Shown here: positions 36,341 to 64,000 of the stretch, one piece after another
Layout: the number at the start of each line of letters is the position of its first letter
Position numbering within the stretch: the stretch's first letter is position 1
Made by a program: the position numbers and the translations under genes
Source of the DNA: Dactylellina haptotyla
Lineage: Eukaryota > Ascomycota > Orbiliomycetes > Orbiliales > Orbiliaceae
Direction: 5' to 3'
Length of the DNA stretch: 64,000 nucleotides
Assembly: GCA_031310005.1 (NCBI GenBank)
Contig: CM062385.1
Span: forward strand, 558,001 to 622,000
Notes under the pieces: generated by a model
Database searches by the model: none
Told to the model about the DNA's origin: nothing
The model's input: only the letters and a program-made list of their open reading frames with translations

Positions 36341-38074
36341 CTATCTAATCTTGTAGAGGCATGGCTGAAGGATGGACTTTTCATCGGTTTCTTGTTCATC
36401 TTCGGTATGGAACTTCTTGCTGATGCGACCATGCATATCTGGTTTTGGGGGTATCTGGAAACCTTGGCTGCCTCTGGTGCCAACCTTCTCGAAATCGAGC
36501 AGGACGAACATTTTGTTAGATCCATTTCGGCTCTTCAACCTCAGACCTCGTCGTGCAAGAGCTTCGACGAAGCTTTGCTCACCAGCAGCCCATCGATTTT
36601 GGTCCACATTTCCTTCCTGCTCCTCAACAAAAGCATCGGCTGGGTTTGTGTCATCCTTGATATTCTTTTCCTTTTTCTTGCCCTTGCCTTTCTTAGGTTC
36701 TTTGCTGGGACCGTCTTCCTTCTGGCCTGTCTTTGTACGTGCGAACCGACTCTTGATTTCTGCAATCCACACTTCTCCGCCGTATTTCACGACCCTAGCT
36801 GCTTCCTCGACCATTTTCAGCCAATTGGTGCCCATAAGCGCTAAGCAGAATATAGCAACATCCACCGAACCATCTCTAAGCGGTAAATTAGCGATATCAG
36901 CCACCGTCACGAGCTCATTGGGCGCATGAAGGTCGTATGAATGGACCTTGATCTTCGGACGAGGTTTCGCTCCCGTGATAGCCTTCGCTAGAGCACCTTC
37001 TCCACAGCCCAGATCAATCACCGTAGCGAATCCGTCTTTTGCTCTCGGTAATGGCACAGACTCCATTGTATCTTGGAACCCGTTCGAGCCCAATGGGTTA
37101 CCATTGACCGAGGATATGCTGTTTGCTTTATGCTTGCCGCTTCGGAACCCAGTCTCTCGTAATTTACCCCGCGTGAACAGCCTCTTGATATATACTTCTA
37201 CAGGGTTCTCTGGCCATGACTCGACCTGCTGCCTAAACCCTGCATGGTAATCTCTAAACATCTCCGGTTGGCTCTTGAAGAGGGTCAATGAATCCTGCGA
37301 GGGAGTTGTATAAAGTAGCTGGTTCAGATGTCTGAACCGAGCTCCGGAAAGCTTTTGCCGCATTTTTTCTTGGAGAGGTGTTAAGGTCGGTGCCTTCGAG
37401 GATGTATCAATCGTCGTCTCCGATACGGCAGTAGCAGCTGCAGCTAAAGCAGTAGTAAAGGGATCTTCATTCGTTGTTTGCTTCTCCTTCTTCTCCTGCT
37501 TTCTATCTTTCTTCTGGTTTGCTTTCTCATCTCGTCTCCCGGTTTTGTTGTCGTCATTTCGCTTCGAGTTGATGCTCATGCGACCTTCGGCGACTTCAAC
37601 TCCGCTATGCTGTAGGCCTGACGGTTGCCGTTTCAGAGATTCAGGTTCGCCATTTGAAACGGTCTCCGAGCGAGTGTGCTCGTGATCGATTTTCTGCTTA
37701 AGATCCGACCCGTCGGCGCTTTTGGAGTCGTGCTTTCTCTTTTTCCTGGATTTGTCTTTCTTGTTCCCCTCCGTCCTGCCACCATCTGGTCCATCCGTTG
37801 CAGCACCAACCTTTGGCGCATTACCGGCTCCTTTAGTAGACGATTCGCCTTTCCCTTCGACTACTTTACTCCAAAGCTCGCCAATATTTTCCGGTGATAT
37901 ATCGACTGCCGCGCTATTTTCAGCGGCTTGGGACCTCTTCCTCTTGCGATGGTTCGACTTTGACGGGTTGTTGGGGTCCGCGGCGACTGCATCGGTACTG
38001 TTGCCGGCTCCCTTGCCGAAACTGGACTTGAGCGACGCGGAAGAAAGGGATGAGAAGGCAGGTACCGCGAACAT
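36341..38074 (-). CDS. RRP8: Ribosomal RNA-processing protein 8 (25S rRNA m1A methyltransferase)
   Basis: Intronless, 577 residues. Rrp8 methylates N1 of a helix-25.1 adenine in 25S rRNA (A645 in yeast) in the nucleolus. The N-terminal half is disordered and Lys-rich (basic clusters near 41-48, 105-116 and 180-198), fitting nucleolar targeting. The Rrp8 hallmark GARFRHLNQLLYTTPS begins near 244, then FHAGFRQQVESWP-like sequence. The SAM motif VIDLGCGEGALAK is at 352-364. CLALMGTNW and GGEVWIAEIKSRF are typical of the catalytic core. Two insertions relative to yeast stand out: about 310-345 before the SAM motif, and a Lys/Glu-rich loop after KSRF. The extension beyond LDFEKVG (about 50 residues) is poorly conserved. 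Confidence 0.95.
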   Translation of the reverse strand: MFAVPAFSSLSSASLKSSFGKGAGNSTDAVAADPNNPSKSNHRKRKRSQAAENSAAVDISPENIGELWSKVVEGKGESSTKGAGNAPKVGAATDGPDGGRTEGNKKDKSRKKRKHDSKSADGSDLKQKIDHEHTRSETVSNGEPESLKRQPSGLQHSGVEVAEGRMSINSKRNDDNKTGRRDEKANQKKDRKQEKKEKQTTNEDPFTTALAAAATAVSETTIDTSSKAPTLTPLQEKMRQKLSGARFRHLNQLLYTTPSQDSLTLFKSQPEMFRDYHAGFRQQVESWPENPVEVYIKRLFTRGKLRETGFRSGKHKANSISSVNGNPLGSNGFQDTMESVPLPRAKDGFATVIDLGCGEGALAKAITGAKPRPKIKVHSYDLHAPNELVTVADIANLPLRDGSVDVAIFCLALMGTNWLKMVEEAARVVKYGGEVWIAEIKSRFARTKTGQKEDGPSKEPKKGKGKKKEKNIKDDTNPADAFVEEQEGNVDQNRWAAGEQSFVEALARRGLRLKSRNGSNKMFVLLDFEKVGTRGSQGFQIPPKPDMHGRISKKFHTEDEQETDEKSILQPCLYKIR

Positions 38075-41000
38075 TTCGGCGGTGGGTATGGGTGCGGTAT
38101 GGAACGATGTCGATTGAAGTTTCAGCGCTGTCTGTAGAAGAGTGGACCCGAAGCGAGCACGAAAAAAAAATATTATCAGAAAAAATTAGTTTGACTGGGG
38201 AAGCAGGAAATGAGTGCGGTTAGCGTGGTTCGGTACTCTGTACACCCGGCCCTGGTCTCGTCCGCCACATTGCATTGTCTCGCCCACGCTGCTTGGCACA
38301 AATCAACCGGTGGCCTGTTGTTCGCAGTGGGGACACGCGGGTCATCGACGATGTACGTATCATACGAATCCCATGGGTGCGACATTAAAAATTGCTGATG
38401 CTATTTTTGCGCTATAGTAGAGTTTTGCTATGTCTCAAGCAGAGCTCGCCTCTGGTCCTTCCACCGTTCCAAGGAGATTGGGCGAGGGGCAGAGATCATA
38501 CGATCGGGCGAAGTTCGAGCGCGAGTTCAATTTGCTTCGTTTCGTTCTCGCTGTTATCCTGCTTACATTAGGAGGAGGAGGAGGAGGCTCTCTCCTTAAC
38601 GCCGCCCGAGACGAGACAATGAGAGGGCCAACGGGCACCGCCACATACTGAAGCCATTCCATCTGCAAGGGTTCAGAGGGTGCCGTTATCAATTGCGGAT
38701 CAGTGATCCAGATAACCAGAATCGAACGGTGCTTCGAAGCTTCGATTTTGACAGGTGCCCGGCTCGAAAGCCCGTCGCATAAAGGCCCGTCGTATAAAAT
38801 ACAATCGATTAAAACCTCGCTACGCAGGGAGATGCCTTCACGGTAGTGCCTTTGCGAAGGCTATCTCGAGGAGAAATTAGCTTTATGCCGAACCGTTAAC
38901 GCTCAGACCAAAGATCAGGTCTCACACAAATCTGGATGCTGGGATTGTTCCAATAAGCCGGCTCCCGGGGTCGTTGATCGTCGAAGTCCAGAGTGAAGCA
39001 CCGAACGGACCGGACCAGGCTGATTTCAAATACTTCAAGTGGGCAATATATTGAGAATGACCGGGCACAGGGGTCTTCCAGTTTCTTCCTAGCTGTTCTT
39101 CGACTACCTTTTCTATTTTCTAAATTTTCGGGGTTCCATTCAAACACTCATACATCCCCAACGCATAGCAGGGGTTGTTACAGTTGGGTACCTGTCGGGT
39201 TCAGGAGAATAATTCAACTTTCTGGACGGAGATCATGCTATCCAATTGAAGCCATTTCCGCGAAGGTACGTCTAACGCATACTCTGCCAAAAGTTCTGCA
39301 TATAGGAGGTTACATATTCGGTCTCGCTTTTGCGGAACTAACTGGGAAGATTGAAATGGTCAAGGATGGGCCCCTCCAGCGGTTAGGTGGAAATTCCTCA
39401 AAAAAAAAAAAAGCTTTCTGAATAGCCCAGGCCTGCAAGAGGGTTCCAAGGCATAATTGCCAGGTCATATAGGCTCGCCATGAGCATCCGAGCATGGAGC
39501 TAAATTAAAATGACAGGCCCGCGTATGTCCTTCGACATCTGCAACGGCAGAGGAGAAATGTCGCCGTATTATGGAGATTCAGTCTAGGATTTTGGTATCT
39601 GAGAAACGTGGTTATCATATCGAGAGAGTGTGACAATATATTTTTGACACCGCACTAGGTTCAAGCTCACATGAGCCTGAACCATGTTCGATCTTGGCTC
39701 GATTCTGTCAGCTGCCCAACTGGCGACCCAGATACATGCTCGGGCATAGACATCAATGCCAGGCATTTTGTCTTGCGACACTTAAAATTTTCTTATTTAT
39801 TTTTCTGATTCAAATTAGCCCCAACTAAACCGCCCTTGGTCAAATGTCTCATATTGCCGTCGCTACCAATTGCTATCTCAAACTATAGAATGTGGCTTAC
39901 TCCTGCTCATGCTTGGTGATGCTGCCGCAATTGGCCGGGACGGGCGATATCAGTCGCCGAAGGTCATTTTGAGGGGGGGTTAGCTAATGTTAGCACCTAC
40001 AGATGCGAGGGGCTAGTCGAGCTTCCAACATGGTGATATATTATACAGAACAACGATAGCCAGTTGCTCGCGTCGGTAGCACACGTCCGCCCCGGTGAGG
40101 CCCTTTCAATTGGCATCTAGAGTTTTTTAACTTTTGTTTTTTGAGTTTCTTGAGGTTTTTTATTCTTTTTGGTTTGATGAAACATGAAAGTTTTTTAGCA
40201 GTTTTGCACGAGCTTACCATCTGAACAGTGACAATGTGAGGACAAAAGGCCAAAAGTGAAATACGCCCGATCCCGGTTCCTTGTCCAACTAGAACTATCC
40301 CGGCTCTCCATGCACCCCTAGCTATTTAGCTTTGAAGCTTCCGTTCACTACCTCACCTCCGCTATTGTGCATTGCGTCGGGGTGATCAAAAGACCGAGTA
40401 AATGATGGGGAAAACAGGAATCCCTTAACAGGGATTAGCCTTAAAATTATTAAATTCAGCATCGCACTAATAGATTCTTTCTGATTCTGCACACACTTCA
40501 TCCCGAGGAGTCGACGCTTGGGCGAGCGCGAGGAAAGCACGATCAGGAAAGGAAAAAAAACAAAAGGAACCCGACCAAAGCTCCCCCATTCATTCCCCCG
40601 GCCGGCTTTTCATGTTGATCGTTTCCCAGCCCTCGGTTGAATATCCAACCTTCCGCAAAGGAGAAAAGTGTTGAGGCTTCAAAAAAGTGATCGAGTCAGT
40701 CCCGCAGCCCTCCCGAGTCAATTGGCTGGAAAAGCGGCGTCAGCCGTGATCATCTGGCGGCGGCGCCCTGGGCCCATTCGCCATTAGTATCGAGTGGTTT
40801 GGTAGCTAAAAGGATATCGTGGCGCTATTTCTCACACATTTTCCCCGTTCTTTAGATCGGTTCGGTTAGGTTCTACCGGTGTTTCTCCCTCAGGCTTTTG
40901 GTTCGAAAAGGCGCATAAAGGTGGAGCCTCCGAGGATTTTGGGGGGTGCCCGTATACGAAACGAGGAGCGAGGGTACGGTACATGCATCTGCACTCCGGC

Positions 41001-56397: not shown

Positions 56398-58178
56398 ATG
56401 GAAAGAATTCTACACGACCAACAGTCGCAGCCCTTTTATCCACGATCTTCAGTATCGATTCATCAACCTCCCGTCAGCGGGTCAGCTTTTTCCGGTATGA
56501 ATTCCACGTCGTTCAGCTCGGCTCCGTCCTACCAGTCCGGACCCGCCCCGGCGCCGTATTCTACACAAATGTCGCAGCAGAGAATAGCGCCGGCCGGATT
56601 AACAGAGCACGAAGGAGCCCAGAATCTCGCAAATCTATCGAACTCAACCCCTTTCACGTCTCATAGACAGCAGCCGGTCCCGCTGTTGCCCATGCCGACC
56701 AACTCTATGCAACAACAGCCTCAGCATCAAAATGCGTTGGCGCCGTTGGCATCTGCACCTCCCGCAAACCATCGTGGGAGTGTAACCCAGGGCCCGCTGG
56801 TTGCGCCAAATGCTGCTACGAGCGGCCAGAGGGCGGGGACTGGCAAAGCGGGTGAGAAGTTTGCGACGAACGTACCGTTTCCCGTGGCACCACCGACCAA
56901 GGATGCCAATGGCAAATTCCCCTGTCCGTACTGCACGAAGACTTATCTCCATGCGAAGCATCTGAAGCGCCACCTCTTACGACGTAAGTTGCAGTGGAAA
57001 GCGGGCTGCTAATTTGCTTGCTATCTCCCCTTATCCATGTAGGCAAACTCGCTAACATTCCTCTTTGCAGATACCGGGGACCGACCCTACCAATGCCCGT
57101 TGTGCAAGGACTGCTTTTCTCGTAGTGACATTCTAAAACGGCATTTCCAGAAATGTTCAATAAGAAGAGGCAATCCGACAAATGCGACCCATCTGTCGCA
57201 AACCCACGCTGCCCGCGAGGCCGCCGCCGCCGCCCAGCTGGCAGCCGGAAAGGGTCCTGCTGGCGGAAAGAAGACGGGCGCGAAGGGTGCCACATACGAG
57301 TACCCCATGCCTCGGAGTCCGTCTCACCCACAGACACCGGCGACTTCGGAAATGAACATGAGCCCTGGCATGTACGCACCGTCGAGCGCGGCCAGCGCGC
57401 CGAATTTCCCTGAATTTCCGCGGCAGAGTCCTGCGGGATCCTGCGACGAATGTGCGAGGACGAAGCTTCACTGCGACTACGGCCAGCCGTGCCAGAGATG
57501 CGCGGCTCGAAACATCGAGTGCACATACCTGAAGACCATGAAGAGGCACTCCGTAGCGGTTATGCCCCATGGCCATGTGCAATCCGGAGCCATGCATCAT
57601 GGTAACGAGCGGTTCAACAACTACCTCCAGCAGAATACAACACAAAATTCGACCCTTTCCTCGCCGCACGAGTACACGACGGAGTCGTTCAACTTCGCTG
57701 GACAGCAACAAGGTGCTATTCCTCACCAGTACAGTCCGCCTCATCTGCAGCAAAGCCACCAGCCTCAGTTTGGTCAAAATTCGAATCCTCACATGCCTGG
57801 GATGCAGAATTCACCGAGAACGCTACCATATCAGCCACGGCGTCAAACAATTCATGACACCCTCTACAGCTCTCTTCACCATCCTCACCAGCCTAACGAG
57901 CTTGACTGGTCGACATTATTGCAACCGACCCAAGAAAACTACGCCGAGACAAACTTCTATGACCCACAGTCAGGAACTAGTGGAGGACATGGACAAAACA
58001 TGGCACCTATGCCAATAATGAATGCACGTCCAGTGTATGCCACCGAGGTAAGCCAAAAATTTCCAGCCATCAATCATGTAGGATCTTGACGTAATGACTC
58101 TAGTCCGGCGTGAGAAGGCATAATTCCCAGGATCACGGATTTTCGAAACCCCCCTCGGAAGCTGTGAAAAAGGAGTAA
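56398..58178 (+). CDS. Transcription factor with C2H2 fingers and a Zn2Cys6 cluster
   Basis: Three exons, 56398-56983, 57071-58047 and 58104-58178, encode 545 residues. After a disordered Ser/Gln/Pro-rich N-terminus, a classical C2H2 finger lies at about 174-196 (FPCPYC ... HLKRHLLRH), completed across intron 1. A second finger at 202-224 (YQCPLC ... LKRHFQKC) ends in Cys instead of the second His, giving C2HC. The linker HTGDRPY is canonical. A Zn2Cys6 cluster follows at C320, C323, C330, C336, C339 and C346 with normal spacing. The rest is Gln/His-rich and disordered, with no helical regulatory domain. Such double-type regulators are known in Pezizomycotina. The targets are unknown, and no neighbouring gene set points to one. 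The start is the first ATG after the T-rich leader. Confidence 0.9.
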
Positions 58179-60523: not shown

Positions 60524-63216
60524 TTTTATAGGCTTTTTAGCTGCACTTTTTCTATACCTACAATAGAATTTGGTGGTCGCAGAGAAAACTGTCGGTGGGC
60601 TTACAACATGCAATCCGTTCGTTCGACTGGGTGGGGGACTTGCTAGATTATATAGATAGAGATACATACAATCTTGTCGACACTCTCGTACCGTGTGTTT
60701 CACTGGCGCCTACCGATTCACGGCGACCCCCGCTATATGCGATTGGGTATCGACATCGTATATTTCTTATCGGCTAGAATGGTCTCCCACCTGCAAGCCA
60801 TTGCCGATCCAATGCATTGTGGCTCTTGATGGAACTTGCCGGTGGCGGTACGTGGCAAATATTGAATCCCATCGTCAATTGCAGGTGTAGAAACCCATTT
60901 CTTTGAATTCTGATTTGCATTCGAGCTTTCCACAACCCATCCACCATCCTCCCCGGCCATTTCACCGTGGACATTTCCTCTCCAGCTTGTGGCAAATAAG
61001 ACGCAACCCAGCTTTGCGAATGGGTGTACAGTGTGGGGTAGTGGAGCCAACATTGTTGGAACTAAGAGGCTCCACAATCCGAAGAAGGTTACACAAACCC
61101 CATGAACGACATCCTTCACACCTGGACCCGCCTCCCCACATGCAGATATCCACAACAGTCCGGCTACCTGCTCGGGTCTAGACAAGGATACCATACAATT
61201 CTTTTTCCGGCCGTTCTTTTTAAATTTTGACAGCTAGCAAGGATTTACAAAGGTCCCACAGTTGCCCAGAAAACCGATCAGGCCTTGTTTAGGAATCGTG
61301 CTGGGGAAACTTCGAGACGAAAGAATAATTTGGCCTTGTTGCATTGGCGAACGAGACGAGAAGCAACTAAGTGGAGCCTGGAACTACATTCAAAAGCTCG
61401 TGCCCGAACTAGTGTACTTCTCGCATACTGGGAACTAACCCGTTTCTTTATACTTTCACATTTTGAAATAGTTGGAGTTGAGAACGAGCTCGGGTTCGAA
61501 GGAGTTGCGCACCGCGCCTGCTCCGAACGGGCCGCATCGATGAACACCGAAACAACGTCACTCGGTCCGATTAGCATGTGTTCTATTGTGAGGTGCCGTA
61601 TGCCGAACTACTCGTAATCATAGTCTATTTAGGAAGTAGGAAGCCCGGCAGCAGGGTTATGTCCCCAAGGCTTCTGTTACGGTCGACACCTTCTAGCGAG
61701 CTCTTGGCTTGGGGTATGTGTAACCTCAGCCCAAAAAGTTCTATGGCAGGTCGTACGAGATCGATTCTGTTCCAGGTTAGCTTGCTCAATACGTATAACT
61801 ACCAGGACAACACCTTCCTCAATCAACCTCACCCTGCAAAATTTCGTGCAAATTTTTATTGTTTCCTGGTTTCGCTTGCAAGACCGCTGAAAAAATTATT
61901 CTTTCCTGGTTCTTTAGCTCACGGTGACTTCAGAAACCCGGCATATAAGGGGGTTTCTTTGGTGTCCTTCCGAGGGGTCTCTTCTCCTATCCTAGAACCC
62001 CTTCAACGCATATCTTTCGTGAATTCAGAGTGCAAATTCAATCTTGCCCCTCACGTCAACAAAAACTTCGCGCGGTGCTAAAGGTCTGCTGTGGAGATGT
62101 AACTATGAAACAAATTACAGGATGGGCTAATAAGACAATAGAGATAAACACAATAGAACAATGCTAAGCCGCCTTCTATTATCCTCGGCATGCTGTTTAC
62201 CTGTGCTCATGATACCAATGTCCTCGCTTAAAGGGTTCCTGAGTTTGTTCCAGAATTTCTTCTTCGAAAATCTTGTTTATTTACTGGTCCCACTATCACC
62301 AAATGCCATAGAACGTGGCGAGTAAAACATTCCGCTTTGCATGAAAGCAGGCGGCTAGCAAAGGCAGAAACAAGGGAATGAATCCGAATGTAGTCAATGT
62401 ATGCGCGGTAATAAATTATCTTTCTTGTATCTGCAGGCTCTTTCTTGTACCTGCAGGCCGATCTGGCAATCGGATCGGGTTCGAATATTCCGGTAAACGA
62501 GACAAGTCTAGTCCACGACGGGATACTGTTAACTGTGTATATCGGGGTTGTGTATTTTTTGGGAATCTGGGAAGAAAGACCGCGGTATCTTCTTTTCACA
62601 TTCGCTTATAGTCTTGGTCACTCGATCGTAACCTTGTAAGGAAAAAATTCTCCCAGGGAAAAAGGCTTATAATTTCTATTTTTGATGTTAGATTCTTGTT
62701 CTCCCCTGCCACGATTTTGGCGTTTGAGTTCGATGATTGGGTCAGTCAGAACCTTGCGCTACGCATATCGCCGGATAGAAAATTGAAAGCTACCGGTACC
62801 TGGCATCCAAGGCATTGGTACCTTATGACGGAGTATAGGAAGAAGAAACGAGAGAGAAAAAGGAAAGAGTGTCGTCAGGGATTGAAGAAGCGGAGCTCAA
62901 TTCTAGAATCCTTCGGCATGTTCGGCCAAAGGCTTCCTGCTTGCATTATTGAAAAAAATTTATGGAAAATTTTACGGAAAAAATTTGTTATTTCACATAT
63001 TCACATTAGCTCATCCAGTTTAAAAAGATGTATAAATGTACTGTCTGGAACTTCTATTTGTTTGAACAAAATATTATACCCATCCTCAAAACCCAATCCA
63101 AACCTGACTCAATAATGTACACTGTAATATAACTTTAATTCCTTATAAGCCAAGCGGTTTCACTACTGACCTCACACTCGTTTTCATACTACTTTCATCT
63201 AAAAACATTGGCAACA
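60524..63216. other. Gene-free stretch of 2.7 kb before the NRPS start
   Basis: No gene is supported. Open frames at 60733-61194 (-), 61578-62081 (+) and 62696-63115 (+) resemble no family. I looked specifically for adenylation or carrier-domain motifs upstream of 63217 and found none. A 20-bp imperfect tandem duplication sits at 62421-62460. AT-rich sequence at about 63060-63150 probably holds the NRPS core promoter. Confidence 0.45.
62421..62460. repeat. Tandem duplication of 20 bp
   Basis: Two adjacent copies of a 20-bp unit starting TTTCTTGTA, each ending in CTGCAGGCT/C plus two bases, differing at three positions. It is in non-coding DNA about 0.8 kb before the NRPS start. Confidence 0.75.
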
Positions 63217-64000
63217 ATGTCCGCCCAATCAACCAAAACTTTATCAGTGGTGGTCGAGCCATTTTCCCTTTTCGACAATGCAGCTGCTGTTCACGGGGCC
63301 CTTATGGAGATTGAATCTCATGGCCTCATCCCTCGTTCCTCCATATTAGACCTTTATCCATGCACACCCATGCAAGAAGGCTTCATGGCACTATCTGCCA
63401 TAGATAAACACTCGTACGTCTGTCAATATGTATTCGATCTACATCTGAACGTCAATCTGGAGCGTTTAAAAGAAGCATGGCGAGTGCTCGAAGAATCCTG
63501 CGAGCTATTGAGAACACGGATCGCGATAACAGAGACGCTCGGTACGGTTCAACTCGTCACATCGAAGGAGACAGTTTGGAAAGAAACAAAAACTCTGGAA
63601 GAGTACCAAAAATGGGACAGAGAAGAAACAATGGACTTCGAAGAACCGCTGAGCCGTTGTGGACTTGCAGACAATGGCAAGTATTTCATCTGGACTGCTC
63701 ACCATGCGATAGCAGATGCATTCAGCATGAATATAATTTTCAGAGAACTGAAGCGAATTTACGGAGAATTGTCGAACTCATCATCGAGCCACGGATCGAC
63801 AATTGTGCCGTTTAGATATTTCGTCCACGACCAGATCAGCACAGATGCGAAGGCAACGGAAAGCTATTGGCGTAAATACCTAGCTGACTGCCCAAGCTCA
63901 GCCTATCCAAAAATCAACAGCACAACTCCTCATGACTCGTCCCCGAATCAAATGATATCCGATACTATGACGATTCAACGTGTGGGCGGATCCAAAATTA
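63217..64000 (+). CDS. NRPS condensation-domain protein, partial (runs off the right edge)
   Basis: The frame is open from ATG 63217 to the window end without a stop, 261 complete codons, no intron needed. It matches an NRPS condensation domain. Residues 11-20 (VVVEPFSLFD) resemble the linker that normally follows a carrier domain. ILDLYPCTPMQEGFMALS (43-60) is the fungal form of motif C1, LLRTRI (97-102) is C2, and WTAHHAIADAFS (159-170) is C3 with H162, H163 and D167 but Ala in place of the usual Gly168. PFRYFV (198-203) and the SYWRKYL segment (216-222) also fit. Condensation domains join an upstream acyl or aminoacyl thioester to a downstream aminoacyl thioester. No adenylation or carrier domain precedes it in the window. 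Domains beyond the edge are unknown, so it may be a full NRPS, a stand-alone condensation protein or a truncated copy. Confidence 0.88.
   Translation, partial: MSAQSTKTLSVVVEPFSLFDNAAAVHGALMEIESHGLIPRSSILDLYPCTPMQEGFMALSAIDKHSYVCQYVFDLHLNVNLERLKEAWRVLEESCELLRTRIAITETLGTVQLVTSKETVWKETKTLEEYQKWDREETMDFEEPLSRCGLADNGKYFIWTAHHAIADAFSMNIIFRELKRIYGELSNSSSSHGSTIVPFRYFVHDQISTDAKATESYWRKYLADCPSSAYPKINSTTPHDSSPNQMISDTMTIQRVGGSKI

Follow-up and report, generated by a model that had tools for sequence, protein, structure and literature searches.

A fungal NRPS gene of C-A-T-C-A-T-R layout with a frame break as assembled and no sign of a surrounding biosynthetic cluster

Introduction

The stretch of DNA analyzed here (64,000 nucleotides, hereafter the window; C7:558001-622000, where a position on contig C7 is the window position plus 558000) ends inside an open frame that carries motifs of an NRPS. 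Does this frame begin an NRPS gene, and does a biosynthetic cluster continue to the right of the window, as the first-pass annotation had proposed? The genome comprises 39.8 Mb in 11 contigs, and the sequence beyond the edge was read on C7:612001-680000, which agrees with the window where the two overlap.

Results

The window closes on an open frame of 261 codons (63217-63999) counted from an ATG at 63217; the open-frame listing starts the same frame at a TTG at position 63208. The translated frame matches the Condensation family PF00668 over residues 45 to 241 (Pfam; E 7.6e-28, 97.8 bits against a cut-off of 30.6), which is far beyond chance, and it matches NRPS chains among solved structures with a best E of 1.6e-13. 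It contains the sequences YPCTPMQE at residue 47, HHAIAD at residue 162, and LLRTRI, which we take to be the condensation motifs named C1, C2, and C3. The proposal of an open frame with condensation-domain motifs at the window edge was thus borne out, and the outcome that had been named as counting against it, i.e., no condensation-family hit for the 261 residues, is contradicted by the PF00668 match.

The gene extends to the right of the window as far as C7:629014. Analyses with Pfam and NCBIfam revealed, over two open frames, the domain order C-A-T-C-A-T-R, i.e., two modules followed by a thioester reductase at the end (Table 1), and this order confirms the assignment to the NRPS family. The features that define membership, PF00668, PF00501, and PF00550, are present twice each, spread over the two frames. 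According to Pfam, the first frame contains the Condensation domain and the greater part of an AMP-binding domain (positions 1-350 of the 384 in the profile); in the second, another Condensation domain and a complete AMP-binding domain are accompanied by two carrier domains and NAD-binding 4. TIGR01733 was matched in both frames (NCBIfam), and the reductase matched the thioester reductase model TIGR01746 above its cut-off (E 5.3e-73; NCBIfam) as well as PF07993 (E 1.2e-43). YPCTP, HH...D, A3, A5, A6, A7, A8, the A10 lysine, and LGGDS each occur twice over the two frames, and the reductase patterns TGATGFLG (Rossmann) and Y..SK, here YAQSK, once each. The linker before the first C domain, which by eye we take to be of the internal type, had raised the idea of a lost module upstream; this was rejected, as no C or carrier match was found nearby upstream and no A match there was among the 14 of 45 candidates scored.

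Table 1. Positions of the NRPS gene domains and of neighboring features (C7, contig positions; window, positions in the window)
Feature	Position	Strand	Basis
NRPS gene start (N-terminal linker and first part of condensation domain 1)	window 63217..64000	+	open frame, PF00668
C1 condensation	C7:621349-622542	+	PF00668
A1 adenylation, first part	C7:622654-623577	+	PF00501
T1 carrier	C7:624290-624478	+	PF00550
C2 condensation	C7:624635-625885	+	PF00668
A2 adenylation	C7:625943-627016	+	PF00501
T2 carrier	C7:627599-627790	+	PF00550
R reductase	C7:627908-628567	+	profile match
DUF6536 membrane-protein frame, directly right of the NRPS	C7:630117-630536		Pfam; further open frames beyond without Pfam match
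Methyltransf_8 protein, just beyond 25 kb left	window 36344-38185		Pfam
Zinc-finger protein, two neighboring open frames, about 5 kb upstream of the NRPS	window 56398..58089	+	zf-C2H2, then Zn_clus

The one notable feature of the NRPS gene is a break in its reading frame, located 1.6 kb to the right of the window. Two open frames in different phases, C7:621139-623625 (829 codons) and C7:623594-629011 (1806 codons), overlap in the first adenylation domain (A1). Aligned with module 2, A1 follows the first frame as far as C7:623592 (130/337 residues identical) and the second from C7:623597 (71/195 identical), leaving four bases between the aligned parts where module 2 has five residues. Relative to module 2, the junction lacks about four residues. 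One other A domain of the genome was compared by eye: it has one residue fewer than module 2 in this stretch, and the junction about three fewer than it; the loop of module 2 serves as a yardstick only, as natural loop length varies among A domains. Among solved structures, the start of the second frame matches adenylation domains in their C-terminal part (best E 1e-34). As assembled, the gene has neither one continuous reading frame nor a plausible splice pattern and cannot give one full-length chain. This argues against the assembled allele being functional but leaves its NRPS ancestry untouched: the assembly shows a broken frame, which is either a broken allele or an assembly error. The annotation of the frame as intact to the last base therefore holds inside the window (open to 63999) but not beyond it, where the frame changes in A1. 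A frameshift soon after base 64000, which had been named as evidence against an NRPS gene, was found in part, since the frame itself stays open to C7:623625 and the homology leaves it 1.6 kb past the edge.

In the right flank, we scanned with Pfam every open frame of 120 codons or longer between the gene end and C7:680000, 70 in all (the last up to C7:678573). No tailoring enzyme or transporter was present in any of the 70, a scan that genes built from exons of fewer than 120 codons could escape. The families over the cut-off were DUF6536, CHIP TPR, the NAT domain of N-acetylglutamate synthase, DEP, ORC4, Lon with AAA parts, AAA, DUF92, 4HBT, Arv1, and MDM31; a DASH Ask1 match fell below it, and the remaining frames had no Pfam family. 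On the other side, the listed frames of at least 150 codons within 25 kb left of the gene contained no tailoring family or transporter. The scan of the window covered 23 of its 32 non-overlapping frames of at least 150 codons, the NRPS included, with the other nine all lying left of 36231. It matched thioredoxin, NOGCT, short-chain dehydrogenase, nucleoporin, MTHFR, Methyltransf_8, a Zn2Cys6 regulator, and WD40; the Zn2Cys6 and fungal transcription-factor families among the Pfam matches suggest a fungal genome. The zinc-finger protein of Table 1 is the nearest recognizable and the only close-by regulator, with Zn_clus (Zn2Cys6) at E 1.6e-8 and zf-C2H2 at E 0.0055, below the cut-off.

Profile searches of the whole genome scored the best candidates only, and their counts are lower bounds. 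No P450 lay on C7 between 474703 and 1118255 among the at least 75 matches listed, and the only ketoacyl synthase on C7 among the at least 27 listed was at 1716821. A biosynthetic gene cluster around the NRPS is not supported, and its proposed continuation to the right of the window was not borne out by the 70 flanking frames or by the P450 search. The extension and domain prediction that had been suggested as a check did yield adenylation and carrier domains, but no tailoring enzymes in the frames to C7:680000.

The genome contains at least 10 Condensation matches, two of which belong to the gene described here. Five, at 976055-983673, lie in a multi-module NRPS at C7:976055-985678 that would be of siderophore type by its layout; one C match of this gene runs over two stops (introns or lesions). 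At C8:388124-399434, KS, C, A, T, and R matches on one strand make up a PKS-NRPS hybrid by layout, with Condensation at C8:391148 beside A, T, and R and the ketoacyl synthase at C8:398688. The other two are identical copies, on C3 and C4, of an alcohol acetyltransferase-like gene with a frame of 467 residues; C3:15378-18716 and C4:1201471-1204809 are 100% identical over the 3339 bases compared, in opposite orientation.

Discussion

The edge finding is settled: the enzyme class was right, and there is no sign of a cluster. We favor, with moderate confidence, a lone fungal NRPS gene of layout C-A-T-C-A-T-R whose first adenylation domain carries a frame break; we infer that the organism itself has this break, that it is recent, and that it leaves an allele without a full-length enzyme. 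The motif patterns searched for were all found in one frame or the other, arguing from the sequence that the break, if real, is probably recent. The same core motifs, kept over both frames, would also be expected if the NRPS gene were intact and functional in the organism and the frame break were an assembly error, which we consider possible but doubtful. The break is confined to a single place, and the two aligned parts together run through 2,597 codons with no other stop, as they also would if the gene worked and the assembly were wrong at that one site. Moreover, A-domain loop length differs by one residue between module 2 and the other A domain, so that a small slip would suffice. However, a stretch short by about four residues relative to the former and about three relative to the latter is more than a one-base slip explains, if these are the right yardsticks.

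A short intron at the junction, the splicing of which would restore the frame, is improbable. GT-AG pairs of suitable phase do exist, e.g., one of 67 bases ending in TTGTAG, but among the 37 phase-restoring candidates of 40 to 200 bases (23 in the narrower range of 40 to 150) a canonical donor (GTRNGY) was present in one, a branch-like site (CTRAY-like) in six, and both in none, a count that introns of unusual sequence could escape. When the 37 were sorted by loss, even the least lossy of them deleted seven residues identical to module 2. The NRPS gene is an ordinary and probably damaged representative of an enzyme family already known. Should the break be real, this is a young broken NRPS, its motifs preserved, in a genome where the searches turned up few NRPS genes.

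If intact, a synthetase with this domain order would activate two amino acids and then join them, the order of the catalytic steps being general knowledge for the family. A starter, acyl or amino-acyl, may be contributed by the first C domain. Reduction with NADPH would set the chain free as an aldehyde, and ring closure to a pyrazinone may follow where the amine of this aldehyde is unblocked. As an assembly line of this kind could make its product with few or no helpers, the missing cluster alone would not indicate missing function. In a tentative reading that we hold to be unlikely, a lineage recently lost a stand-alone C-A-T-C-A-T-R synthetase, which may have made a pyrazinone or an acylated dipeptide aldehyde; because the motifs are preserved, the gene would then be a fresh fossil of an uncharacterized, cluster-free pathway.

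The InpB pathway leads to a peptide aldehyde. That the NRPS is, like InpB, the core of a biosynthetic cluster, e.g., one of fellutamide type, appears very improbable. The idea was raised by the length of InpB, the fellutamide synthetase of Aspergillus nidulans, which at 2327 residues is of roughly similar size (excerpt of PMC10734572). It agrees with the two modules and the reductase and with the zinc-finger protein upstream, the fellutamide regulator ScpR being listed as C2H2 type in the excerpt of PMC8395729. Against it, tailoring families and transporters are missing from the scanned frames on both sides (the right flank and 25 kb to the left), no P450 was matched nearby, and no second NRPS was found beside the gene, the next listed Condensation match on C7 lying about 347 kb away at 976055. 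As for a fatty-acyl-AMP ligase, no nearby AMP-binding match other than the NRPS was found among the 14 of 45 candidates scored or in the scanned open frames. The at least 21 proteasome matches gave, in our grouping, 14 loci, which is the usual number, and thus no extra proteasome subunit was seen; nor was a beta6 copy found near the NRPS, as no listed proteasome locus lies within about 90 kb and the nearest are at C7:720094 and 734842. The fellutamide-type cluster was set aside on the proteasome number and the neighbors.

Among known systems, peramine synthetase and MalG share the two modules and the reductive release with the frame-broken NRPS described here, but they start with an A domain, whereas the latter starts with a C domain. 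The C-A-T-C-A-T-R layout is already known. ATEG_09068 of Aspergillus terreus is listed with the identical domain string in the excerpt of PMC4274970, a likeness of printed layout and not of sequence, in a row that shows no product. According to the excerpt of PMC10979478, C-A-T-C-A-T-R is the typical pyrazinone assembly line, from which a dipeptide aldehyde is released and closes to a pyrazinone, and a Boc-protected dipeptide aldehyde inhibits cathepsin L. The microbial pyrazinone synthetases described there have the layout in common with our gene, which differs in being fungal and frame-broken. The NCBIfam model of the aureusimine synthetase AusA matched the second frame with an E of 8.4e-136, but with 454 of 2500 bits the match is far below the cut-off, and many other NRPS models also match this frame. 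Multimodular fungal NRPSs end mostly in a C domain and some in an R domain (excerpt of PMC2823734), and the excerpts of PMC4205913 and PMC8403587 contained no C-A-T-C-A-T-R entry. InpB is a large fungal NRPS like the one described here. Its cluster comprises inpA, a fatty-acyl-AMP ligase, a transporter, a proteasome beta6 copy, an esterase or lipase, and a regulator (excerpt of PMC10734572), partners not found at our locus save for a zinc-finger protein whose connection with the NRPS would be hypothetical. The shortened inpB relict in Aspergillus navahoensis that the same excerpt reports provides a precedent for the decay of such genes.
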